37,373 nucleotides of DNA from Halioglobus sp. Its GTDB lineage: Bacteria > Pseudomonadota > Gammaproteobacteria > Pseudomonadales > Halieaceae. Where the stretch lies: assembly GCA_020443325.1 (NCBI GenBank), contig JAGRIK010000128.1, positions 1 to 37,373 of the forward strand, given 5' to 3'. The position numbers and the translations under genes were made by a program. Below, one piece after another: positions 7,270 to 35,587 of the stretch (position 1 is its first letter; each line of letters starts with the position of its first letter). The notes beneath the pieces were generated by a model, which did no database searches, was not told where the DNA came from, and saw only the letters and a program-made list of their open reading frames with translations.

Positions 7270-7290
7270 AGCCCGCCAGTGAAGCGGGCT
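7270..7290. terminator. stem-loop between convergent sulfatase and ion-channel genes
   Basis: AGCCCGC (7270-7276), a 7-base loop, then GCGGGCT (7284-7290) form a perfect 7-bp GC-rich stem between two convergent genes, overlapping the channel gene's stop. No T-run follows on either strand, so this would be a weak or bidirectional terminator at best. Confidence 0.4.
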
Positions 7291-8353
7291 AGCCCTGTAT
7301 ATAGATGTATCCTCCTACGAGACCGGTAATCAACACATAGCTCGCCGGGAATAACACACGGCACAGCCTGTCCACGCGATCCCCCTGCACCTGGCGGCTG
7401 CTGTTGTCGAGTGCAGCGACCCGCAGGTTTATCACAATACTGGCGCACATCATCAGGAAGCTGATAATCATGAATGACATCAGCACGGTGATGTACGAGA
7501 TCTTCGGCAGGCTTTCACTGGACATGATCTGGTACGCAACCACCGTCAGGATACCGATAAAGGATATATCCATGCGATCCCCCAGCGAGGAGCGCTCCAT
7601 CCAGAATACCGACCACGACATCATTACAAATACCATCACGGGGAGCGCGACAAGCCTCAACGTGTACCAGTAGTTGCGCTCGATATCGACCTGCACTTTA
7701 AACGCCTTCACATGAACGTCGCTACCGTCGAGATAAACGGGCATGTATTCCACCACAGATGTCGATAGTTGGGGCTCGCGCCACTGCGGCACCTTAACCT
7801 CGTGGTGATCGTCTTTCCAGATGCCCGTGTTGCGGTCATCAGCGCGCAAGCTGACCTGGTCCTTGTTAAGCCCCAACACTTCAAAAATCGCGACCAGTTG
7901 CTGTCGATCAAACGGATAGCGCGCCAGCTTCAGGTACGACTTTGCAATAGCGTCTATTTCTTCCGTGTAATAGACGTCACCGTCCGGTGTAATTCGCAAC
8001 ATCACACCCTCGCGGTCAAACCGGCCCGCTTCATTGGCCAGGATAATCTGCGGCCACCACCCACTGAACACTTCGTTGAACTGGAAACTTCCCTGGTAAT
8101 AGAGCTCATCGTAGCCCGTTTCCGCCGGATCAAACGCCAGTCTCGAATCTTTCCAGTGCATGCTCAACACACCTTCAAAATCGAAGGTCTCGTCCTCCTC
8201 GTAAATGGCGTTGATGTTGCTGAGAAGAAAACCGATATCGACGACGATTGGGCCCTCGCCCAGCGGGGGGCCCGCGACGTTGGTACTCGCCTGCGCGCCA
8301 AACCCGAGCGAACAGAAAATTGCCATGAGTAGAAACCGGATGTAACGCGGCAT
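7289..8353 (-). CDS. prokaryotic pentameric ligand-gated ion channel subunit
   Basis: 354 residues from ATG 8353, chosen because it starts a clean signal peptide (FLLMAIFCSLGFGAQA); the in-frame ATG at 8440 adds a polar, improbable leader. The N-terminal ~200 residues are the beta-sandwich ligand-binding domain, including YPFDRQQLVAIFE, the bacterial equivalent of the Cys-loop region without the two cysteines, as in GLIC and ELIC. Four membrane helices follow: M1 (WYTLRLVALPVMVFVMMSW), M2 (ISFIGILTVVAYQIMSSESLP, lining the pore), M3 (YITVLMSFMIISFLMMCA) and M4 (VLFPASYVLITGLVGGYIY). ILTVVAY and SLPK/SYIT around the M2-M3 loop match ELIC-like channels. It would form a homopentameric inner-membrane channel. 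The ligand is unknown. It is divergent from the beta-propeller lipoprotein gene. Confidence 0.9.
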   Translation of the reverse strand: MPRYIRFLLMAIFCSLGFGAQASTNVAGPPLGEGPIVVDIGFLLSNINAIYEEDETFDFEGVLSMHWKDSRLAFDPAETGYDELYYQGSFQFNEVFSGWWPQIILANEAGRFDREGVMLRITPDGDVYYTEEIDAIAKSYLKLARYPFDRQQLVAIFEVLGLNKDQVSLRADDRNTGIWKDDHHEVKVPQWREPQLSTSVVEYMPVYLDGSDVHVKAFKVQVDIERNYWYTLRLVALPVMVFVMMSWSVFWMERSSLGDRMDISFIGILTVVAYQIMSSESLPKISYITVLMSFMIISFLMMCASIVINLRVAALDNSSRQVQGDRVDRLCRVLFPASYVLITGLVGGYIYIQG

Positions 8354-8533
8354 AAGCAGTGATGTCCCTGTTGTGTTTCTTCGCGGCACTTCAGTCTTCA
8401 CCTGGTAGTTCCAGCCGCGCAAAAGCGAATAGCACGCCATACGCTCGTGAAGTAGCTGCTGTCCGGTGCTGATTATTGGTCTTTCTACACCGGGATGCTA
8501 TCGTTATGGTTTCACAATAAGCAGAAAATAACC

Positions 8534-10198
8534 ATGCGCACCGTTGTACTCCTCACCCTTTTGCTGCCTTTCCTGGCCGCCTGCAGCGACACCGGCAATC
8601 AGGAATATAGTGCGAGCGCAGCGCCGTCGCTGGCGTTTCTCTCCTATCCGGTTACGCCCCAACCAAGGGGAGGACTCTGCAGCGACACCGTCGATGTGAA
8701 TGCGCCCATCATTGTAAATGGTTTCGGATTTAATGATTCCAATACCCGCAACCAGCCCTCGCTGATCGACTCAAGTAATGTCGACACCCTGACGCTGAAT
8801 TTTCACTACGCACAGGCGTCCGTGACTGAAAAGCGAGGGGCACCTGCGGTGACCGCACAGGTTATATTCCTGACGAGTGGCAACCAGTTGCTCGCCATCA
8901 ACAGGCTATCGGGTTGTCGCTACTGGCGTTTTACCACGCCGGGTAGCGGCGTGAATTTCCGCTCCGCCTCCATACTGTTTGTGGCCGGCGATGACGTATC
9001 GCCCGCGGTGCTCTACGTCGCGGATTTCAACGGTATTGTCTACGCCGTGAATGCGGCGAACGGCGAGCCCATCTGGCAGAAGTTTGTGGGCACCATCCCC
9101 TATCTCCACTTTGTAACCGGGGGCATGCAGCACCATGCCGGCAAGCTTTTTGTTCCCGTCTCCAGCAAGGAAGTGCTCGCCACGGCGCTCCTGCCGGGCG
9201 CGTGTTGCATAAGCCACGGCATGCTGGTTGCGCTGGAGGCGCGCACCGGGGAGGTTTTATGGCAGTTCCACACGACGAAGGATGCAAGCGAGGTCGTGTT
9301 AGCGGGTGAGCGAATTGGGCCCAATGGTGCACCGGTATGGGCGACGCCCACCCTGGATGTCAGGCGCAATGCAATTTATATCGGCACCGGACAGAACTAC
9401 ACTGAACCGGCGACAAACACATCCGACGCCATCATCTCGCTCGATATGGACAGCGGTGCAGTGAACTGGATATTCCAGGCGAGAGAGAATGACACATGGA
9501 ACGGGAACTGCGGGATTATAAACTCCCTGCGTTGCTCCAATCCTCCGGGCCATGACTTCGATTTCGGCGCCGCCCCGATACTGCTCGATGACGGTGACAC
9601 CCTGATCGCCGGGGACAAGGGTGGCGTGGTGTACTCAATCCAGGCCGATACCGGCACCCTCAACTGGTCCAACAAAGTGAGTAAAGGTTCTGCGCTGGGC
9701 GGCATCCACTGGGGTATGGCGGTAGACGAGCAGCGCGTGTATGCCGCGGCGACAGACTTCAGTATCGACAAGGCATCGGGCGGCCTGGCGGACCTGATCC
9801 CGGGTGCCAGGCCCGGCATCTATGCCCTCGACCTCGAGAGCGGGGCCATCGACTGGGAGATTCATCCCACGCGCACGTTTGAGGGATTGACGACATCCGA
9901 GTTGTATTCCGCCGCGCTTGCCATCAGCAATGACCTGCTGTTTGCCGGTTCACTGGATGGCACAGTCAGGGCATTTTCTACGCGCGACGGCACTGAAAAA
10001 TGGTCTATCGACACCGCTGTTGCCTTTACTGATATCAACGGCGAACCTGGCAATGGCGGCACCATCGATTCCGTCGGGGTCGTGATTGCCGGGGATGGCC
10101 TGCTGGTTAACTCAGGTTACAGCACGTTTCAGGGCGTCGATGGCCGCTATCAGGCCGGACCCGGCAACGCGCTGTTCGTCCTGCGGTTGCCGCAGTGA
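8534..10198 (+). CDS. PQQ-type beta-propeller lipoprotein, polyvinyl-alcohol-dehydrogenase-like
   Basis: 554 residues from ATG 8534, the codon that begins a lipoprotein signal (LLTLLLPFLAAC). No good Shine-Dalgarno is visible. The body has repeated propeller blades with the Trp-docking pattern (SGCRYWRF, NGEPIWQKF, TGEVLWQFH, SGAVNWIFQ, TGTLNWSNK, SGAIDWEIH, DGTEKWSID). GACCISHGMLVALEARTG contains vicinal cysteines (about residue 223), and GPNGAPVWATPTLD with YIGTGQNYTEPATNTSDAI resembles PVA dehydrogenase and related quinoproteins. PQQ binding is plausible but not proven, because non-catalytic propellers such as BamB share the blade motif. No CxxCH heme-c site is present, unlike classical PVADH, so any electrons would need a separate acceptor. 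Confidence 0.8.
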   Translation: MRTVVLLTLLLPFLAACSDTGNQEYSASAAPSLAFLSYPVTPQPRGGLCSDTVDVNAPIIVNGFGFNDSNTRNQPSLIDSSNVDTLTLNFHYAQASVTEKRGAPAVTAQVIFLTSGNQLLAINRLSGCRYWRFTTPGSGVNFRSASILFVAGDDVSPAVLYVADFNGIVYAVNAANGEPIWQKFVGTIPYLHFVTGGMQHHAGKLFVPVSSKEVLATALLPGACCISHGMLVALEARTGEVLWQFHTTKDASEVVLAGERIGPNGAPVWATPTLDVRRNAIYIGTGQNYTEPATNTSDAIISLDMDSGAVNWIFQARENDTWNGNCGIINSLRCSNPPGHDFDFGAAPILLDDGDTLIAGDKGGVVYSIQADTGTLNWSNKVSKGSALGGIHWGMAVDEQRVYAAATDFSIDKASGGLADLIPGARPGIYALDLESGAIDWEIHPTRTFEGLTTSELYSAALAISNDLLFAGSLDGTVRAFSTRDGTEKWSIDTAVAFTDINGEPGNGGTIDSVGVVIAGDGLLVNSGYSTFQGVDGRYQAGPGNALFVLRLPQ

Positions 10199-10283
10199 GA
10201 CGCTAGCTGCGTGTGTTGAAAATCCTTGATCTGATAGCTCGGCTTGTTTTCGTAGGGCTGTCGGGGGGTTGGTCGTGGGCGAC

Positions 10284-10358
10284 GGGCTCGCACCCCAGTA
10301 GGCGTTTCAGTCGCTCCACGTGATTCGCTTGGTGAAACGCCTACTGGGGTACGAGCCC
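10284..10358 (+). repeat. foldback 1: 26-nt arms, 23-nt conserved loop
   Basis: The left arm 10284-10309 begins GGGCTCGCACCCCAG and ends GGCGTTTCA. The right arm 10333-10358 is its reverse complement with one mismatch (25 of 26). The loop 10310-10332 begins GTCGCTCCACGT and ends ATTCGCTTGG. The same loop, with one transition, occurs inverted in foldback 2, while the arms of the two elements are unrelated. A CGTAGGGCTGTCGG motif lies 26-33 bases outside the left arm. This is not a terminator because no T-run follows. Confidence 0.9.
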
Positions 10359-10455
10359 TGCATCCCAATGCTACGGCACGATGTGTGATGAACGTTAGAT
10401 TGTCCGGTGCATGAATGGAGCGTTTTTTTTGATCTAGTCGAATGGTGTGTACTGA

Positions 10456-10532
10456 GGTTGCGGATAGAAAATGTGTTTCTCACCAAGCGAATTACGTGGA
10501 GCGACTGAGAAACACATTTTCTATCCGTAACC
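10456..10532 (-). repeat. foldback 2: 27-nt arms, same loop in inverse orientation
   Basis: The left arm 10456-10482 begins GGTTGCGGATAGAAAA and ends TTTCTCA. The right arm 10506-10532 is its reverse complement with one mismatch (26 of 27). The loop 10483-10505 starts CCAAGCGAATTACG and ends GAGCGAC; its complement equals the loop of foldback 1 except for one G/A difference. Outside the right arm is CGCCCTACA, the complement of TGTAGGGCG, so both copies present a GTAGGGC motif on their outer ends and face each other. Confidence 0.9.
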
Positions 10533-10699
10533 GCCCTACAAAGCCAGTTCCCAGAAAGCGGAAATCCCTCAGTTTTCATCCCGGTCAGTTTTCCCCCGGT
10601 CTTGCACTCGCTTGAGACTTCTTCAACACGCTGCCTGTACGGCACAGATATCGACGTGATCCGAAAGGCGTTGGCTCTTTCCTGTTATGTCGATCGTGA

Positions 10700-11410
10700 C
10701 TAGTGCTGGTGGTGCAAAGGCTGCGACTGTCCAGCGTCATCGTTGTGTCCGCTGTGCCCGCTGTGCGAGGCAGTGATGTAGAGTGTCCATACGCCTGAGC
10801 CGATAAGCAGCAGCGCAATCACAACTTTCAATCCACGGCGCCGCAGTAACGCCTGCAATCGCGCCGCGCCCAGGCTGGTCGAGAGCATTGCGGGCAGTGT
10901 GCCCAGGCCAAACAGCAGCATCATCAGTGCCGAGGTTGCAGCACTCTGCGCCGTGGCCGCCCAGGCGAGACTGCTGTAAATCAGGCCGCAGGGCATCAGG
11001 CCCCAGCATAGCCCCAGCGCAAAGCCCTGCGGCCACCGCCGCAGTGGCAGCCAGTTGGAGGAGAGACGCTGAACCGGTTGCCACAGCTTTGCGCCGCCGC
11101 GTTCCAGTAGTGCCATGCCGCGCCACCAGTTGGCGATGTAGAGCCCCATGCCTATCAACAGCACACCTGCGAGATAGCGCAGAGCGATCGTCCAGGCGGC
11201 GATATCGACGCTCGCCGCTGCGAGACCGAGCAAAGCGCCCAGTGTGGTATAGCTCGCTATCCGGCCCGAGTGATAGGCAAGGGTGATCGCGGGCGAGCGC
11301 GCTCCCCCGAGGTTGAGCGCTGCGGCGATGCCGCCGCACATACCGAGGCAATGGCCTGCGCCGGACAGTCCCAGCAGAAATGCGGTACTGGCCTGTGTCG
11401 CGTCAATCAT
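10700..11410 (-). CDS. TauE/SafE-like (DsbD-type) membrane protein of the cbb3 cluster
   Basis: 236 residues with about six membrane helices. The first helix carries GLSGAGHCLGMCGGIAAAL, and a later one CWGLMPCGLIYSSLA. These paired Cys-containing helices are the signature of the COG2836 sulfite-exporter-like family, which is related to the DsbD/CcdA transmembrane domain. Members next to ccoS are thought to assist cbb3 oxidase maturation, possibly in copper or thiol handling; sulfite export is not implied by the name. The C-terminus is His-rich (HSGHSGHNDD and HHQH), suggesting metal binding. Its start overlaps the end of ccoS by 8 bases, so it is the last gene of the ccoGHIS operon. Confidence 0.85.
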   Translation of the reverse strand: MIDATQASTAFLLGLSGAGHCLGMCGGIAAALNLGGARSPAITLAYHSGRIASYTTLGALLGLAAASVDIAAWTIALRYLAGVLLIGMGLYIANWWRGMALLERGGAKLWQPVQRLSSNWLPLRRWPQGFALGLCWGLMPCGLIYSSLAWAATAQSAATSALMMLLFGLGTLPAMLSTSLGAARLQALLRRRGLKVVIALLLIGSGVWTLYITASHSGHSGHNDDAGQSQPLHHQH

Positions 11411-24609: not shown

Positions 24610-27600
24610 TTATTTCTCGAGGTTCGACAGGTCGGCCGTGACATGGGCCAGTGGCTTGGGCCTGCCTATGCCCCAGCCCTGGAGATAATCGACGCCCAAC
24701 TCTTCGAGTTTGACAATGATTTCATCATTCTCGACAGATTCTGCGATGGTTTCCTGCCCGAGGAAATGTGCCAGGTCATTGATGGAGCGCGCCATCGCGT
24801 AGTCGTTGCGGTTGGTGTGAATGCCGGTGATGAAACTGCCGTCGATCTTCACATAGTCAACGGGCAACTCGCGCAGGTAGTTGTGACTGGCGGGCCCGGT
24901 ACCGAAATCATCGATCGAGAACTTACAGCCGATATTCCTGAAGGCGCGCACGAAATCCGATGCCTTGATCAGGTTTGATATGGTGCCGGTCTCGGTGATT
25001 TCGAAACACAGGCGGCTGGTGCCCACGCCGAACTCAGATATCTGCTCCAACAGGTACTCCATGAAGCTGTCGTCGGTGACACTGGCGCCGGACAGGTTGA
25101 TGGCCAGGTTGGGAACGACTTTCTGTTCGTCCATCAGCTGGCTGATCCAGGTAAACGCCTCGCGCACGACCCAGCGATCCACCAGCGTCATAAAGCCGTA
25201 GCGCTCGGCCGACTGGATAAACTCTTCGGGGGAAGCGACGGATCCGTCCTTGTTGAGCAGCCCCAGTAGCAACTCGTAATGCAGTGTGGAACTGCTGCGG
25301 TCGCTGATGGCTGTTTGCACAATGGGCTGTGCCCGCAGGATAAACCGTTCGGACGCCAGGGCGCTCTCGAGGTCCTGCCGGCTCTGGGTCTTTTGCAGTT
25401 TGTAGTCATTGATGCGGCTTTGCTCTTCCTCAAATGTGACAACCCGGTTGCGACCCTGTTGCTTGGCGTGTCGCATAGCCGATTGCGCGTCTTCGAGGAC
25501 TTCCTCGACGGAGGGGCTGTGTTCAAGAATGGCCGCCACGCCGATAGAGACAGTAAAGCTGACGTTCTCACCTTCGATATCCATTGAACTGGCTTCGATA
25601 TCGCTGCGTATTTTCTCCGCGATCTGCGCGGCCTGCTCCATGGTGCGATCAATCAGCAGGACTGCAAATTCATCCGCTTCCATTCTTGCCGAGGAGGCTT
25701 TTTTGCCGTGCAGCTGCGCCAGCAGCCTGGCAAACTCCAGCAGTACCTGGTCGCCGCTGATGCGGTCGTATACCTCGTTGACCAACTTGAACTGGTCGAT
25801 GTTCAGGTAGAGGATCGCGTGCTGGGAAATCTTCGACTGGCTGTGACGCAGGGCGCGTTGCATCTGGCCCATGAAGGCATTGCGATTGATGAGCTTCGTC
25901 AGCGTATCGTGATTCCTGGCGAAGCTGAGCGATTTTTGTACGTGCTCCAGCGCGTGATACATACTCTGGTCGACAACGGATAGGTCATCTGTCGGCGCCG
26001 GTGGCTGCGCGCCCCGACTCAATTGCCTGGCCAACTGTATTGCACTGAGATCCCCAACTTTTTGTCCTCTCTCATTAACGAAAATATACCTGTCACGCGT
26101 CGGGCTGATCCAGGCGAGCTGCATACGTTTTTTGTTGTTGTTTTTATCGCGATACGTCAGCCAGTTCCCGTTGTCCAGCTGTTCTACACGTTTGACCCAG
26201 CGGCGCAGGCGGGGCAGGTCGTCAATTTTTGCGCGCACCTCGGCGGGTTCCGGGCCGAGATTCATCTGCTCCGGATTAACGGGCGCGGATTCGATCCCGG
26301 TGTTCCCCGCCAGAATGTTGCGCAGCGTCTCCAGTACCTCCTCGTGCCCGACGTTGGTGGGTAGTGCACTGGAAATTTGCTGGTTGATCAGGTCGATAAA
26401 CGGTTCTGCCTCGAGACTGCGTTGTACCTGCATGTCATCGCCAACATCACTGTGCGTCTGTTCGTCCAGCCAGAGGCTCAATACATCCAGGGTTCGCACC
26501 TGTTCCGCCCAGGCAGCGCTGTCCGGTCCATCCCTGACGTGCGTCAGAACCAGCAGGTCACGCCACCCCTTGTTGATGAGATCCTGCAGCACTTTCGGCG
26601 CAGTGGGTGGCTGCACCCTCTCGCTGATAACTTTTGCTACCGCACGCCGCGCCTCCGCCAGTTTTTGTTGGCCCTCCTGCGTGCGCACGACCCGCTCTAC
26701 ATTGCGCGAGAGCGCGCGCTCCTGCTGGGCGGTCAGAACGTTGATTTTCTCCAGCGCCGTACTGAAAACGGAGTCGTCATTTTCATAATCTGTGAGGATG
26801 TCATCGACGATTTCCTTTATTCGGGCTTCCAGCGCTTTGTTGGGGAAGTTGGCGGAGGAGGCCAGGCGCGACAGTTTATTGACGACGTTCCGCGCGGTGT
26901 TGGTGTGGTCGACGAAAAACTGGGGATCCAGCAGCGCCAGCTTGGCCAGCGGAATCTGCAGATTACTCAGTGCCGGCCTCACCTCCGTCCCGACATCCAG
27001 CCTGGACTTGATCGTCCCGAACAGGTTGTCGACCATATCCAGTTGATTGAGGCTTTCCGCCGTCAGGCCGCTGCTGTTTTGCAGGCCGCCTATTTCGTCC
27101 TTGTTACTGGCCAGGTAGGCGCGTAGGGAATCACTTTGTTGCACGGCTTCCCGCGCCTCTGAGCTGCGCTGCAGCGCACTCAATGCCTTGGCTATGGACT
27201 GGGCGTCGGCCAGGCGACTCTGGTCCAGATCGGTGCTTGCGACCGTCGCGCCGTCCCAGGTGCCACTCATCGCGGTGCCTTTGGCCAGCACCCGGCCTTC
27301 CGCCAGACCCTCGGATTCGCGTTTGAAGTTGAGTGCGTCCACCACCGATCTGTAGAGATCGGCAGGGTTAACATTGCTGAATGCGCCGCCCAGTTGTTCC
27401 CCGAGCTGTCTCTCGGTCTCATTCAGCTCGGCGATGGCTGATGTCAGCGGTTTGATCGCGGCGCGCTGCGCGTTCCGTTGTGCTTCGGATAAATATTGCG
27501 GCTGTGGCTCAGCGAGCGGCTGCGGTTCTGTTGGGCCGGGGGCTTTGTGCGTGCGCGGTAAGGATTCCGGCCTGGTGTCCAGGGGCTGGTGCTTGAGCAG

Positions 27601-28728
27601 CGTGCCCTTTTTCTCTATCTCAGCTTCGATGTCGGGCAGTACCTGGTGTTCCGCGAGCATCGTATTCAATGGCTGATAGTAGTCAGCCATCTGCGGGATG
27701 AAGTGCTTGGAAAAGAAGTCGTAGATCACCGGCAGCACGCTGTGGGGGACGTCCTCGTCCAGCAGGGCGCGCTGGAACGCCCGGCAAATCTGTCGAATAT
27801 GGATCGGCGACCGGACTTCGTTGGGATCCAGGTCGACCAGTGTCGCCAGGCGCAGCGTCAGTGCTTCCAGCGCAATTTTATGCAGACTCTCGCCAAGCAA
27901 TACCATGCGGTCTATCGCGAGGAAGTCCTCATACTGTTGCTGGTCTATCAGGTCCAGTTCGTCAGCGCTGCCTATCTGGTAGCGCCAAAGGTGGTCTTCT
28001 GTGTGGTCTGGCGTGAAATCGCGAAAATAGTTTGCTACCTGCCGTGTCACGCGGTCGATCACGCTGTCCGATCTGCGACGCAGGAAACTGGCCGCCTCGA
28101 AGTGGAAGTTTTTCTCTCCCTCGCGCGGCCTGCTGCGCGAGGCGCACTCGTGCAGGTAGGTTGTCAGTTCAACGAAAAAGGGCGTCAGGGCTTTTTGTAG
28201 TTCGGACAGGCTTTGTTTTTCCACGTTGTCCAGCAGCACGGCGTACTCAGCGGTGGCCGCGATGGTCTTCGACGGCGCATCGCGCGTTGCGAATGTAGCG
28301 ATCGGGGGAGGTGGGGCCGAACTGGCAGGGGTCTTGATGGTGGCCTGGCCATTGGTGGCAGGAGAGGCGTCATCAGCAGAAGCATCGGACGCGGCCGATT
28401 CCGCGTCTGCAATCGCTTTCAGGTACAGCGTGGCGAGATCCGCATTGGATGCATCAAATTCCAGGGTGATACTGTCGTGGTAAAGCCTGGCGATTTTGAC
28501 TTTTGCATCCCCGGGGGGGTGTCGCACGACGTCAGTATCGCTGATGGACAATGTGACCACCGCGTCTACAGGCAGATTAAACAGGGCCTCAGAACCGGCG
28601 GCATCCAGAACCGTGTCAAGTTGCAGGCGACCGTCCAGCGAAGACGACAGCTGGCCGCACAGTTGCACCCGTTCATCCAGTGCAAGTGTAGCGGCGAGTT
28701 TTGCAGGTTGTTCCTGGTCGTTAGGCAT
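24610..28728 (-). CDS. DUF1631-GGDEF-EAL c-di-GMP signalling protein
   Basis: 1372 residues, no membrane segment seen. The N-terminal ~110 residues are beta-rich and could be PilZ-like. DUF1631 fills roughly 160-800, a mostly helical region with unknown function. A short segment near 860-925 has WLTYRDKNNNKKRMQLAWIS, followed by a GGDEF domain (about 938-1100) whose catalytic motif is degenerate (RMEADEFAVLL, Gly-Gly replaced by Glu-Ala) and with no RxxD inhibitory site. The EAL domain (about 1130-1365) keeps HYELLLGL, NLSG, FEITETG, DDFGTG, VKIDGSF and LQGWGIGRP, so phosphodiesterase activity is plausible. I expect c-di-GMP degradation, or GTP-tuned degradation through the inactive GGDEF. 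It precedes the LuxR gene by 12 bases. Confidence 0.9.
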   Translation of the reverse strand: MPNDQEQPAKLAATLALDERVQLCGQLSSSLDGRLQLDTVLDAAGSEALFNLPVDAVVTLSISDTDVVRHPPGDAKVKIARLYHDSITLEFDASNADLATLYLKAIADAESAASDASADDASPATNGQATIKTPASSAPPPPIATFATRDAPSKTIAATAEYAVLLDNVEKQSLSELQKALTPFFVELTTYLHECASRSRPREGEKNFHFEAASFLRRRSDSVIDRVTRQVANYFRDFTPDHTEDHLWRYQIGSADELDLIDQQQYEDFLAIDRMVLLGESLHKIALEALTLRLATLVDLDPNEVRSPIHIRQICRAFQRALLDEDVPHSVLPVIYDFFSKHFIPQMADYYQPLNTMLAEHQVLPDIEAEIEKKGTLLKHQPLDTRPESLPRTHKAPGPTEPQPLAEPQPQYLSEAQRNAQRAAIKPLTSAIAELNETERQLGEQLGGAFSNVNPADLYRSVVDALNFKRESEGLAEGRVLAKGTAMSGTWDGATVASTDLDQSRLADAQSIAKALSALQRSSEAREAVQQSDSLRAYLASNKDEIGGLQNSSGLTAESLNQLDMVDNLFGTIKSRLDVGTEVRPALSNLQIPLAKLALLDPQFFVDHTNTARNVVNKLSRLASSANFPNKALEARIKEIVDDILTDYENDDSVFSTALEKINVLTAQQERALSRNVERVVRTQEGQQKLAEARRAVAKVISERVQPPTAPKVLQDLINKGWRDLLVLTHVRDGPDSAAWAEQVRTLDVLSLWLDEQTHSDVGDDMQVQRSLEAEPFIDLINQQISSALPTNVGHEEVLETLRNILAGNTGIESAPVNPEQMNLGPEPAEVRAKIDDLPRLRRWVKRVEQLDNGNWLTYRDKNNNKKRMQLAWISPTRDRYIFVNERGQKVGDLSAIQLARQLSRGAQPPAPTDDLSVVDQSMYHALEHVQKSLSFARNHDTLTKLINRNAFMGQMQRALRHSQSKISQHAILYLNIDQFKLVNEVYDRISGDQVLLEFARLLAQLHGKKASSARMEADEFAVLLIDRTMEQAAQIAEKIRSDIEASSMDIEGENVSFTVSIGVAAILEHSPSVEEVLEDAQSAMRHAKQQGRNRVVTFEEEQSRINDYKLQKTQSRQDLESALASERFILRAQPIVQTAISDRSSSTLHYELLLGLLNKDGSVASPEEFIQSAERYGFMTLVDRWVVREAFTWISQLMDEQKVVPNLAINLSGASVTDDSFMEYLLEQISEFGVGTSRLCFEITETGTISNLIKASDFVRAFRNIGCKFSIDDFGTGPASHNYLRELPVDYVKIDGSFITGIHTNRNDYAMARSINDLAHFLGQETIAESVENDEIIVKLEELGVDYLQGWGIGRPKPLAHVTADLSNLEK

Positions 28729-32309: not shown

Positions 32310-33041
32310 ATGGCCCAGGCGCTGTTGCCGCTGAAGGATCTGGTGCAGGCCAAGACGCGCCTCAGTGGCCTGTTGCGTCCATCAGAGCGCCGTGCGCTGG
32401 CGCAGGCGATGGCCGAAGATGTGCTGGAGGTCCTGGCGGAGCACCCGGCGATTACGCAGATTACCCTGGTATCGGATGACCCCGGGGCCGAATTGCTGGC
32501 ACAGAAATACGGCGCTGCCTGCTGGTCTGAAAATTCCCTGGCGTGTCGTGGCCTCAACCCCCTGATGCAGTGTGCTTCCGAGCAATTGCTGAGCCGTAGC
32601 GAGGACCCATTGCTGGTGTTACATTGCGACCTGCCGCTGTTAACGGGAGATGATATCAGTGCGGTGCTGGCCTCCCAGCGAGCGCTGGATGGGCTTGTTA
32701 TTGCCTGCGACCGACAGGGCAGGGGGACGAACCTGCTGGCATTCGCGGCCGGCACCGTACCGCAATTCAGTTTTGGTGCAGATAGTTGTGCCAGGCATGA
32801 GGCGAGCGCCCGCAGCGCGGGTTTCCCTGTCGCGATACTGCAAAGAGAGGGCATTGCTGTCGATGTGGATGAACCGGCGGATTTACAATGTGTGATGAAT
32901 CGCCTTGCTATAAAGCCGCACAGCCACACTGCCGCGTTGCTTTTAAACACTGAGCTGGGCGCGCGCATTGCGCTTGCCCTGGCCACGTTGGCTGGCAGCG
33001 CGCATGCTGTTGACGATGTAAACAGAGGATGGCACAGCTAA
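32310..33041 (+). CDS. cofC: 2-phospho-L-lactate guanylyltransferase
   Basis: 243 residues, slightly long for the family. It opens MAQALLPLKDLVQAKTRLSG, the GTP-binding loop with the conserved Lys-x-Lys-x-Arg arrangement, then RRALAQAMAEDVLEVL, ITLVSDDPGAELLA, VLHCDLPLLTGDDI and DRQGRGTNLLAF, all typical of CofC/FbiD nucleotidyltransferases. It makes the GDP-activated C3 acid for CofD. Whether 2-phospholactate, PEP or 3-phosphoglycerate is used cannot be judged by eye. About 35 residues after VDVDEPADLQCVMNRL form an Ala/Leu-rich extension without a recognised motif. Its stop overlaps the favoured fbiC start by one base (TAATG). Confidence 0.9.
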   Translation: MAQALLPLKDLVQAKTRLSGLLRPSERRALAQAMAEDVLEVLAEHPAITQITLVSDDPGAELLAQKYGAACWSENSLACRGLNPLMQCASEQLLSRSEDPLLVLHCDLPLLTGDDISAVLASQRALDGLVIACDRQGRGTNLLAFAAGTVPQFSFGADSCARHEASARSAGFPVAILQREGIAVDVDEPADLQCVMNRLAIKPHSHTAALLLNTELGARIALALATLAGSAHAVDDVNRGWHS

Positions 33042-35587
33042 TGCCGGATTGGCAGACATTACAGGAGCACCTGCGCCAGGGCATCGCGCCCAGTGACGAG
33101 CAGGCGTTGTCGTTGGCAGACATTGACGATACAGCCGCGCTGGTGGATGTTGCGGCCGTGCTGCGCGACCGCGGTCATCACAACGTGATTACCTATTCGC
33201 GCAAAGTCTTTATTCCGCTCACACACCTGTGCCGGGATGTCTGTCACTACTGTACGTTTGCCCAAACGCCGAAAAAAATTGAACAGCCCTATATGCCCGT
33301 GGAGGATGTGCTGTCGCTCTGTCGCGAAGGGGCCAAAATGGGCTGCCAGGAGGCGCTGTTCACGCTCGGTGAAAAACCCGAGCTTCGCTATCGCGCAGCG
33401 CGACAGGCGCTCGATGACATGGGGTTTGCAACGACGCTGGATTACGTGAAGGAAGTGGCCCGCCGCGTGCTGTCGGAAACCGGACTGCTGCCGCACATTA
33501 ATGCCGGCTGTATGGATGCCGACGAGATAGCCGGTTTGCGCCAGGTGAGCGCCTCCATGGGCATCATGCTGGAATCCGCATCAGAGCGATTGTGCCAGAA
33601 GGGCATGCCGCATTACGGTTCGCCCGACAAGGAACCCGCCCGGCGCCTGCAGACGATGGAGCTGGCGGGCGAGGCCGCGGTGCCGTTTACATCGGGGGTG
33701 CTTATCGGTATCGGTGAAACCCGCCGCGAACGGATCGAATCCCTGCTCGCACTGCGCCGGGTGCATCAGCGTTACGGCCATCTGCAGGAAGTGATTATCC
33801 AGAATTTCCGCGCCAAGCCCGACACATTGATGGCGGCCGCACCAGAGCCTGATCTCAACGAGTTGCTGTGGACGATTGCAGTGGCACGGCTGGTATTCGG
33901 CCCCGCGATGAATATCCAGGCACCCCCCAATCTCAGCCCCGGTGTGTTGCCGCAGTTAGTCGCGGCCGGTATCAACGACTGGGGCGGTGTTTCGCCGCTT
34001 ACACCCGATTACGTGAATCCGGAGGCACCCTGGCCGCATCTTGAGCGCCTGGCCTCTGAAACCGCTGCCGCGGGCAAGTTCCTGGAGCAGCGGCTCACGG
34101 TATACCCGGCCTACGCCAGCGATGGCCAACGCTGGTTAGATAAGGACGTACAACCCGCGGTCTTGCGCCTTTCCGATGCCGCAGGTTTCGCACGGCGCGA
34201 CAACTGGGTGCCGGGCGAGGAGCACCCCGTTCCCGCCGTCGACGCACAACTGCTGGCATCGGTACCCGAGTCGGCCACGGTGTCTGCTGATGTGCGCGAT
34301 ATCGTCCGGCGGTGTCGCGAGACAGCGCAGCTTACCGAGGAGGATGTGACACGCCTGTTTGACTCGCGGGGAGCGGATTTCTCCTATGTGGTAGGGCAGG
34401 CCAACGCGTTGCGGCAAGCGGTTAATGGCGACACGGTAAGCTACGTTGTCAATCGCAATATCAACTATACCAACGTGTGCTATTTCAAATGCCAGTTCTG
34501 CGCGTTTTCCAAGGGCAAGCAGAGCGAAAATTTACGCGGGCGGCCTTACGACATCAGTGGCGAAGATATCGCGGCGCGCTGTATCGAGGCCTGGGAGCGC
34601 GGTGCCACCGAGGTGTGTATGCAGGGTGGGATACACCCCGATTACACGGGCCAGACTTATCTCGACATCGTACACACCGTGCGTACTGTCACGCCGCAGA
34701 TGCATATACACGCGTTTTCGCCGCTGGAGGTCTTGCAGGGAGCGACAACGCTGGGCATCAGCGTACCGGTATTCTTGCGCCAGTTGCGCGACGCCGGGCT
34801 GGATACCCTGCCGGGTACAGCGGCGGAAATCCTGCACGATGAAGTTCGTGCGAGCCTCTGCCCGGACAAACTCAATACCGCGCAATGGCTTGAGGTGATG
34901 GCGGCGGCACACGACGCGGGGCTGCGCACGACCGCAACAATCATGTACGGCCATATTGACAGAACGCGGCACTGGGCCAGTCACCTGCTGCAGATCAGGG
35001 CGCTGCAACAGCGCACGGGTGGGTTTACAGAGTTCGTGCCGTTGCCATTCGTACATATGGAAGCGCCGATGTATCTCAAGGGCAAGGCGCGGCGCGGCCC
35101 CAGCTTCCGCGAGGCGGTGTTGATGCACGCGGTGGCGCGCCTGGTGTTCCATGGCCTGATCGACAACATACAGGCCTCCTGGGTAAAAATGGGCAGGGAC
35201 GGTGTAGCCGCGTGCCTGAACGCCGGCGCCAATGACCTGGGCGGTTCACTGATGAATGAAAGCATTACGCGTGCGGCGGGTTCCGGCCACGGCCAGGAGT
35301 GGGCGCCGGCGCTGGTGGATGCGCAAATCCGCGCGGCAGGGCGTCGCCCGCGCATGCGCACAACCCTGTACGCCGACGCCAGCGATGAGCGACGGGAATC
35401 CGCATTTGCCGCGGCGCCGCTGGCCGAGGTGTACAGTGCTTCAGCCGGGAAACGCCAGCGCAACAAGCGTATCGCGGAAGCCGATTTCCTCGGAAATGCG
35501 CCACAGGCGCTGCCTCTGACCTGGGTGCAGCCGTCTCAGGACCCCACCGTGTACGAGAGCGTGGTGTTGATGGCCGCCTGTAACTGA
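33041..35587 (+). CDS. fbiC: Fo synthase, CofG-CofH fusion (FbiC type)
   Basis: 848 residues from ATG 33041, chosen for the TAATG coupling to cofC; ATG 33029 is in frame, but AGAGG abuts it directly. The N-terminal half has the CofG radical-SAM site HLCRDVCHYCTFAQTPKK and KMGCQEALFTLGEKPE. The C-terminal half has the CofH site NVCYFKCQFCAFSKGKQ and EVCMQGGIHPDYTGQTYLD. Both have C-x3-C-x2-C. Together they convert tyrosine and 5-amino-6-ribitylaminouracil into the deazaflavin Fo. Length and order agree with actinobacterial FbiC (about 856 residues), whereas archaea keep the halves separate. It ends 17 bases before ung. Confidence 0.97.
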   Translation: MPDWQTLQEHLRQGIAPSDEQALSLADIDDTAALVDVAAVLRDRGHHNVITYSRKVFIPLTHLCRDVCHYCTFAQTPKKIEQPYMPVEDVLSLCREGAKMGCQEALFTLGEKPELRYRAARQALDDMGFATTLDYVKEVARRVLSETGLLPHINAGCMDADEIAGLRQVSASMGIMLESASERLCQKGMPHYGSPDKEPARRLQTMELAGEAAVPFTSGVLIGIGETRRERIESLLALRRVHQRYGHLQEVIIQNFRAKPDTLMAAAPEPDLNELLWTIAVARLVFGPAMNIQAPPNLSPGVLPQLVAAGINDWGGVSPLTPDYVNPEAPWPHLERLASETAAAGKFLEQRLTVYPAYASDGQRWLDKDVQPAVLRLSDAAGFARRDNWVPGEEHPVPAVDAQLLASVPESATVSADVRDIVRRCRETAQLTEEDVTRLFDSRGADFSYVVGQANALRQAVNGDTVSYVVNRNINYTNVCYFKCQFCAFSKGKQSENLRGRPYDISGEDIAARCIEAWERGATEVCMQGGIHPDYTGQTYLDIVHTVRTVTPQMHIHAFSPLEVLQGATTLGISVPVFLRQLRDAGLDTLPGTAAEILHDEVRASLCPDKLNTAQWLEVMAAAHDAGLRTTATIMYGHIDRTRHWASHLLQIRALQQRTGGFTEFVPLPFVHMEAPMYLKGKARRGPSFREAVLMHAVARLVFHGLIDNIQASWVKMGRDGVAACLNAGANDLGGSLMNESITRAAGSGHGQEWAPALVDAQIRAAGRRPRMRTTLYADASDERRESAFAAAPLAEVYSASAGKRQRNKRIAEADFLGNAPQALPLTWVQPSQDPTVYESVVLMAACN

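Follow-up and report, generated by a model that had tools for sequence, protein, structure and literature searches.

A family of paired hairpins was found in genomes of the Halieaceae. The two hairpins of a pair lie head to head and carry the same 23-nt loop on different stems. The interpretation that a putative trans-acting factor recognizes the loop in the folded strand is given about even credence here. As a rule, dispersed hairpins in bacteria have a conserved stem and a variable loop. In this family the reverse is seen, with the loop kept and the stem variable, and the constraint on the loop can be measured at loci shared between genomes. Literature searches for this repeat or for hairpins with conserved loops listed no description of the hairpin family.

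Hairpins and repeat element in the window

The window is a 37,373 nt stretch of Halioglobus sp. DNA (assembly GCA_020443325.1, contig JAGRIK010000128.1). The host assembly comprises 365 contigs and is 90% complete. The element is located in the gap between two convergent genes, a PQQ-domain gene (8,495 to 10,198, + strand) with relatives in Halioglobus and related Gammaproteobacteria, and a DsbD-like gene (10,700 to 11,410, - strand). Hairpin 1 (type A) has an outer arm at 10,284 to 10,309 and an inner arm at 10,333 to 10,358. This 26-nt stem is 96% complementary and encloses 23 nt. The loop (10,310 to 10,332) reads GTCGCTCCACGTGATTCGCTTGG on the + strand and CCAAGCGAATCACGTGGAGCGAC on the - strand, the latter being the putative folding and functional strand, on which the inner arm would be the 5' arm. 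The stem of hairpin 2 (type B; 10,448 to 10,482 and 10,506 to 10,540) is 35 nt, 89% complementary, and also encloses 23 nt. Its loop (10,483 to 10,505, + strand) reads CCAAGCGAATTACGTGGAGCGAC. The inner 27 bp (10,456 to 10,532) contain one G.T wobble on the + strand, between the inner arm (10,456 to 10,482, the 5' arm on the putative functional + strand) and the outer arm (10,506 to 10,532). The inner spacer (10,359 to 10,455) is less conserved than the loops and arms.

The two loops are inverted relative to each other, the copies at 10,307 to 10,335 and 10,480 to 10,508 (29 nt) being 97% alike. DNA folding gave z = -9.6 for hairpin 1 and -11.1 for hairpin 2, and 0 of 200 shuffles equalled them. 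These values confirmed a first-pass annotation of the window, which had described one inverted 23-nt loop on two unrelated stems. It had also placed a GTAGGGC motif on the outer side of both hairpins. The right-hand motif directly adjoins the stem; by eye, many host copies have it, whereas other genomes do not. On the left it lies 25 bases outside the stem, where most other host copies read otherwise (by eye). The motif seen across genomes sits on the inner side of each hairpin, as AGG at the base (by eye). No T run was found directly 3' of either stem on the + strand, where TGCATCCC follows hairpin 1 and GCCCTACAAAG follows hairpin 2, which argues against intrinsic terminators.

Both hairpins lie within a longer MITE-like repeat element of about 427 bp (10,207 to 10,633), the terminal repeats and outer flanks of which are conserved among host copies. 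The left terminal inverted repeat (10,207 to 10,223, + strand) reads CTGCGTGTGTTGAAAAT, with a family consensus of CAGCGTGTTGAAAAA, and is preceded by CTAG (10,203 to 10,206). The right repeat (10,619 to 10,633) reads CAGCGTGTTGAAGAA on the - strand. It is followed by CCTG, and this copy shows no clear CTAG target duplication. By eye, the conserved flanks of the host copies terminate in inverted repeats CAGCGTGTTGAAAAA with CTAG adjoining many of them. Target duplications, also judged by eye, consisted of CTAG flanking some host copies on both sides and of AAACTTTT in L138, and were weak or absent elsewhere.

Three other genes of the window were recorded. A homologue of pentameric ligand-gated ion channels (Neur_chan_LBD and membrane domains) is encoded at 7,289 to 8,440 (- strand) in this marine gammaproteobacterium. 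A 1372-aa DUF1631-GGDEF-EAL protein is encoded at 24,610 to 28,728 (- strand). An 852-aa protein (33,029 to 35,587, + strand) combines two radical SAM stretches with a C-terminal CofH domain, and is presumably a fused F420 (FO synthase) enzyme.

Copies and distribution

The further core copies anticipated by the first-pass annotation were present. The core pattern matched 106 times in the host genome (up to 2 mismatches) and its reversed-pattern control 0 times. The 288-bp region likewise had many host-genome matches, the longer ones at 82-96% identity (40 candidates scored). Many host copies are at contig ends, which indicates that the assembly breaks at the repeat. Most host copies belong to one amplified family, in which the stems are conserved as well. 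Thirty-nine copies of it were aligned, collected by whole-element BLAST without use of the core and with three chimeric rows excluded.

Nine of 140 genomes of the family carried the core. These were G000, G001 and G016, from the 18 genomes of the host genus, together with G030, G034, G054, G059, G479 and G528. A three-mismatch match in G044 was lost at two mismatches. In the class sample four of 369 genomes matched, one of them the host and the other three with single two-mismatch matches. IMG/VR held no exact match to the core pattern. No plasmid matched the element or a 35-nt core probe, and phages gave four partial matches, none covering 80%.

The outer shell of the element differed between carriers. 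Terminal inverted repeats, the mark of a MITE, were present in both the host copies and the G030 copies. The host shell end TAGCAGCGTGTTGAAAAA was found at 27 places in G000 and had no match in G016 or G001 (up to 1 mismatch). The G030 copies have a different shell, with the end GGTTCATCGYRGNTTTCCGGGG at 36 places (up to 3 mismatches). At this threshold the same type of end was found in G052 (four), G054 (one) and the non-carrier G032 (one), and in none of G479, G016 and G001; copies in G054 and G479 have looser forms of it (by eye). In three of the four G052 loci the contig stops 53 bases past the start of the end repeat, and hairpins at these contig-edge loci may be unassembled. By eye, the G030 shell end resembles an ISL3 end of G011, GGCTCTTCATCATTAACGGGGGA, which has an 8-bp target duplication. 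From their ends, we take the two shells to be ISL3-like and IS5-like. Two loci of G014 have host-type ends without the core. One of them, L257, is a short coreless element with the end TAGCGGCGTGTTGAAAAA (by eye), and the host shell type therefore occurs by itself. Two shell types, and a host end missing from G016 and G001, imply that the hairpin pair is not bound to one MITE type. ISL3 was rejected as the mover because short stretches of its transposase were found in only two carriers, G030 (two) and G016 (one), and none in G000, G001, G054, G479, G059, G528 or G034. These stretches were the only sign of an autonomous partner with matching ends, the host shell having been searched by its end motif.

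Hairpin anatomy

The fetched loci, a selection from the matches in each genome, contained 216 core matches, 198 of them with both 25-nt flanks. In 182 of these 198 cores at least 18 of the 25 arm positions are paired; of the remaining 16, six have long loops that the pattern misread. There were 122 different 25-nt arms in 141 distinct hairpins. The expectation that the flanks would be inverted repeats of differing sequence thus mostly held. The core has 1.7-2.0 bits of information at 20 of 23 positions, the variable ones being 12, 13 and 22. The stems often have CGG at the outer and AGG at the inner side (by eye). Among 64 loci the arrangement was '+-' in 25, '-+' in two, '+--' in two, '++' in one, single in 32 and none by the test in two. 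At least five of the 32 single loci (L143, L174, L181, L184, L216) contain another hairpin, the loop of which is long or diverged. Flanking genes read in toward the element in 146 cases and away in 67, by a simple codon-position score that gave no call at 57 of 139 loci, so the sites are mostly downstream of genes. By eye, the T run of a terminator immediately precedes several G030 copies.

Some single hairpins of G054 resemble middle deletions that joined the two outer arms. In hairpins of this type the arms were corrected near the loop in L163, L170 and L191 and not in L155 and L193 (by eye). Inversion between paired cores was rejected, as no outer-A/inner-B hairpin was noticed by eye.

Longer, insert-bearing loops (about 38 nt) alternate with the 23-nt loops, and further core variants exist. 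A second variant, GTCGCTCCCCGATACACGCTTGG, and close forms of it were seen in L249, L251 and L253 of G030, in both hairpins of L251. An extra tandem 38-nt-loop hairpin lies directly outside the 23-nt-loop one in L058 and L076 of G000, where G016 has one hairpin. A GCCGACA tandem array lies directly outside the element in L185 of G001, and the orthologous G016 locus is without it. Beside G054 hairpins TTTCGG arrays (L154) and tandem outer-arm units (L158, L161) were seen. L187 (G059), L217 (G528) and L034 (G000) each have an element next to one shared gene region located downstream of the str operon; by eye, this region includes a TM2-type gene. Also by eye, a further hairpin of L187 has different arms and a diverged core, GTCGCGGCCCGATATCCGCTTGG.

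Loop and arm changes at shared loci

Loci were matched between genomes by flank comparison. Those shared by G000 and G016 were L033/L176, L058/L178, L063/L180, L066/L177 and L076/L181. G016 and G001 shared L175/L182 and L179/L185, and G054 and G479 shared L188/L216. Orthologue counts exclude L188/L216 and L187/L217, the hairpins of which are not one to one, and core counts also exclude the first core of L076/L181 (23 vs 38 nt). The 11 orthologous 23-nt core pairs had 17 differences, eight at position 13, five at 22, three at 12 and one at 9, with 0 at the 19 other positions (209 sites). In 12 orthologous hairpin pairs 246 of 308 arm pair positions were the same, 44 were double changes that still paired and 18 were one-sided or broken. 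The spacers of five element pairs differed at 142 of 466 aligned sites, with a further 45 gap letters. L066/L177 has colinear flanks but an inverted loop, and its arms differ by 10 double changes. The constancy of the loop is partly ascertained, since most cores were found by the core pattern with 2-3 mismatches allowed, and it comes from few independent orthologous loci.

A comparison by flanking genes, free of the core pattern, covered two loci. At the rpoC-rpsL locus the element was intact in two of eight syntenic genomes and six were without the core (up to 6 mismatches); four further genomes were not syntenic or cut. At the rplQ locus two of 13 syntenic genomes had the element and 11 did not, with three further genomes not syntenic or cut. 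No decayed form of the element was seen in the syntenic genomes at either locus.

In the 39 host rows non-consensus letters made up 2.1-2.5% of the cores, 3.9-5.5% of the arms, 8.6% of the spacer and 15-17% outside, and 35 of the 37 variant core letters were at positions 12, 13 and 22. The description of free arms and a kept loop in the first-pass annotation therefore stands between genomes and at orthologous loci but not within the host genome, where the arms of the one amplified family are conserved too, an outcome that the annotation itself had named as refuting. Arms, loops and spacer are mutually unlinked in the host copies, which could result from recombination or assembly mosaics. Loop swapping among host copies was dropped as an explanation, as the long or short state is unlinked to the rest, as is everything else tested.

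Strand bias of stem mismatches

Isolated arm mismatches were scored on the strand with the loop CCAAGCGAATNNCGTGGAGCGAC. G.T was the most frequent (107), followed by A.G (27) and G.G (10); A.C (8), C.T (6), C.C (5), T.T (6) and A.A (2) were rare. G.T was alike in both locus orientations (49 and 58). These totals count related copies. With each combination of genome, position and bases counted once, a set still not fully independent, there were 51 G.T against 8 A.C (P = 9e-9). Stable G-containing mismatches on one strand point to selection for folding of the CCAAGCGAATNNCGTGGAGCGAC strand, which probably works folded. The mismatch signature would then tell which strand folds. The bias tracks the hairpin and not the locus strand, so that mutation bias from replication or read-through should cancel. 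It could partly be a mutational mark or damage of one hairpin strand. On the sense strand of incoming genes single hairpins had the two loop orientations in 23 and 18 cases, or 20 and 13 in a hand recount without the five loci that have a second hairpin. The lack of an orientation bias relative to incoming genes argues against an mRNA element and favors DNA.

Proposed mechanism and alternatives

The 23-nt loop may be the recognition site of a putative trans-acting factor on one folded strand, the one with the loop CCAAGCGAATNNCGTGGAGCGAC. The stems would merely present the loop, and their sequence would be free. The factor, a putative nuclease, recombinase or transposase, would act on single-stranded DNA, as happens with REP and attC hairpins. 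The window copy would be one of many dispersed in the host genome within a MITE shell with the ends CAGCGTGTTGAAAAA. Pairing may be upheld by replication template switching together with selection against destabilizing mismatches on the CCAAGCGAATNNCGTGGAGCGAC strand. Template switching between arms is known to homogenize them, to give multi-base compensatory changes and to invert the spacer (PMC8794818, PMC8604942). It would account for the paired arm changes, the corrected single hairpins and the flipped loop. The constant loop and the strand bias are not explained by it and suggest a factor that reads the loop of one folded strand. At the shared loci the effects of template switching, in the arms and the loop flip, can be told apart from those of selection on the loop and the wobble bias. 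The narrower proposal, that a protein recognizes the loop, with its roughly 20 fixed positions, on one strand of single-stranded DNA with any stem and that selection keeps such sites across genera, is tentative and held with less than even confidence. A protein of this type would represent a new kind of sequence-specific single-strand recognition. Neither the Y1/RAYT nor the ISL3 transposase tracks the element among carriers. The two different MITE shells look like ordinary repeat amplification and are counted against the factor model.

The main rival, considered rather unlikely, is that the copies are ordinary MITE remnants. IS-type transposases would have spread the shells with the hairpins as passengers, template switching would have matched the arms, and recent shared ancestry, gene conversion between copies and search bias would make the loops look constant. 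The host shell ends, the separate ISL3-like shell of G030 and the coreless G014 loci fit this, and template switching explains the arms and the loop flip. However, at old shared loci the cores hardly changed while the spacers changed at almost a third of sites, and gene conversion would need to stop at the loop because the arms differ between loci. The missing host end in G016 and G001 also argues against it, and neutral hairpins do not predict strand-biased mismatches. The first-pass annotation had offered an RNA hairpin with a factor bound to its loop and arms drifting together. A loop-bound factor fits best among its models, but the RNA form, a transcript hairpin with the loop bound by a protein or small RNA, is improbable. 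A transcript would agree with the tolerance of G.T wobbles on one strand, with stem changes that stay paired and with sites mostly downstream of genes. Against it are the unbiased orientation of single hairpins, the loop flipped at one locus, the G030 copies placed directly after a T run and the window itself, where 0 Rfam models matched at gathering scores.

A REP/REPIN system moved by a RAYT (Y1) transposase, to which the annotation had linked its GTAG motif, here with unusually long stems, is very improbable. Head-to-head pairs, intergenic sites, one functional strand and Y1 genes in four carriers (G000, G001, G054, G059) are in its favor. Some G030 hairpins account for most cases of GTAG at the 5' stem base, and the heads often end in A before the stem G. 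However, no Y1 match was found in the carriers G030, G016, G479 (71% complete), G528 (86% complete) and G034, and none of five carrier Y1 neighborhoods (L230, L234, L235, L239, L263) had a core hairpin. PF01797 was searched in 20 genomes and matched in 10, with no correlation to the core, and RAYT was rejected. Variable stems with kept loops are also the opposite of REP families. The other model of the first-pass annotation, in which insertion of a small core creates inverted copies of the DNA beside it, is extremely improbable. The wide variety of arms among genomes and loci would suit it, but copies of one family have common arms and a common inner spacer, both hairpin types, A and B, are seen again in G000, G016 and G001 (by eye), and the empty sites read without arm sequence (by eye), the element-free syntenic relatives at both loci being without core or remnant. 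Overall, the first-pass interpretation was partly supported, with the factor model as the preferred reading.

Comparison with known systems

The family has terminal inverted repeats and copy number in common with MITEs, but its hairpin pair is found with two unrelated shells and, in G016 and G001, lacks that of the host. In integron attC sites one strand acts as a folded hairpin and the stem sequence is largely free, with conserved bases in the stem and a variable loop. The present hairpins may be analogous in the single folded strand and the largely free stem, but here the loop is the conserved part. A conserved loop on a variable stem is also found in the rolling-circle origin stem-loops cut by HUH Rep proteins, whereas the present hairpins are many inverted pairs dispersed over the chromosome. 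REP and REPIN sequences (BIMEs) are short palindromic intergenic repeats in head-to-head arrangement with G.T pairs in the stems, located between convergent or co-directional genes (PMC3733652), and the family resembles them in its intergenic palindromes, its sites relative to such genes, head-to-head pairs and G.T stem pairs. GTAG REPs are given there a stem of 5-13 bp and a loop of 2-20 nt, whereas the stems here are about 25-30 bp and the loop is 23 nt. The family also differs from REPs in that the loop is conserved while the stems vary, GTAG is not consistent and several carriers are without a RAYT match. The repetitive hairpin elements of sponge mitochondria are dispersed singly or doubly with conserved stems and variable loops (PMC2800124). 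The Halieaceae hairpins are likewise dispersed as single and double forms, but with the loop and not the stem conserved.
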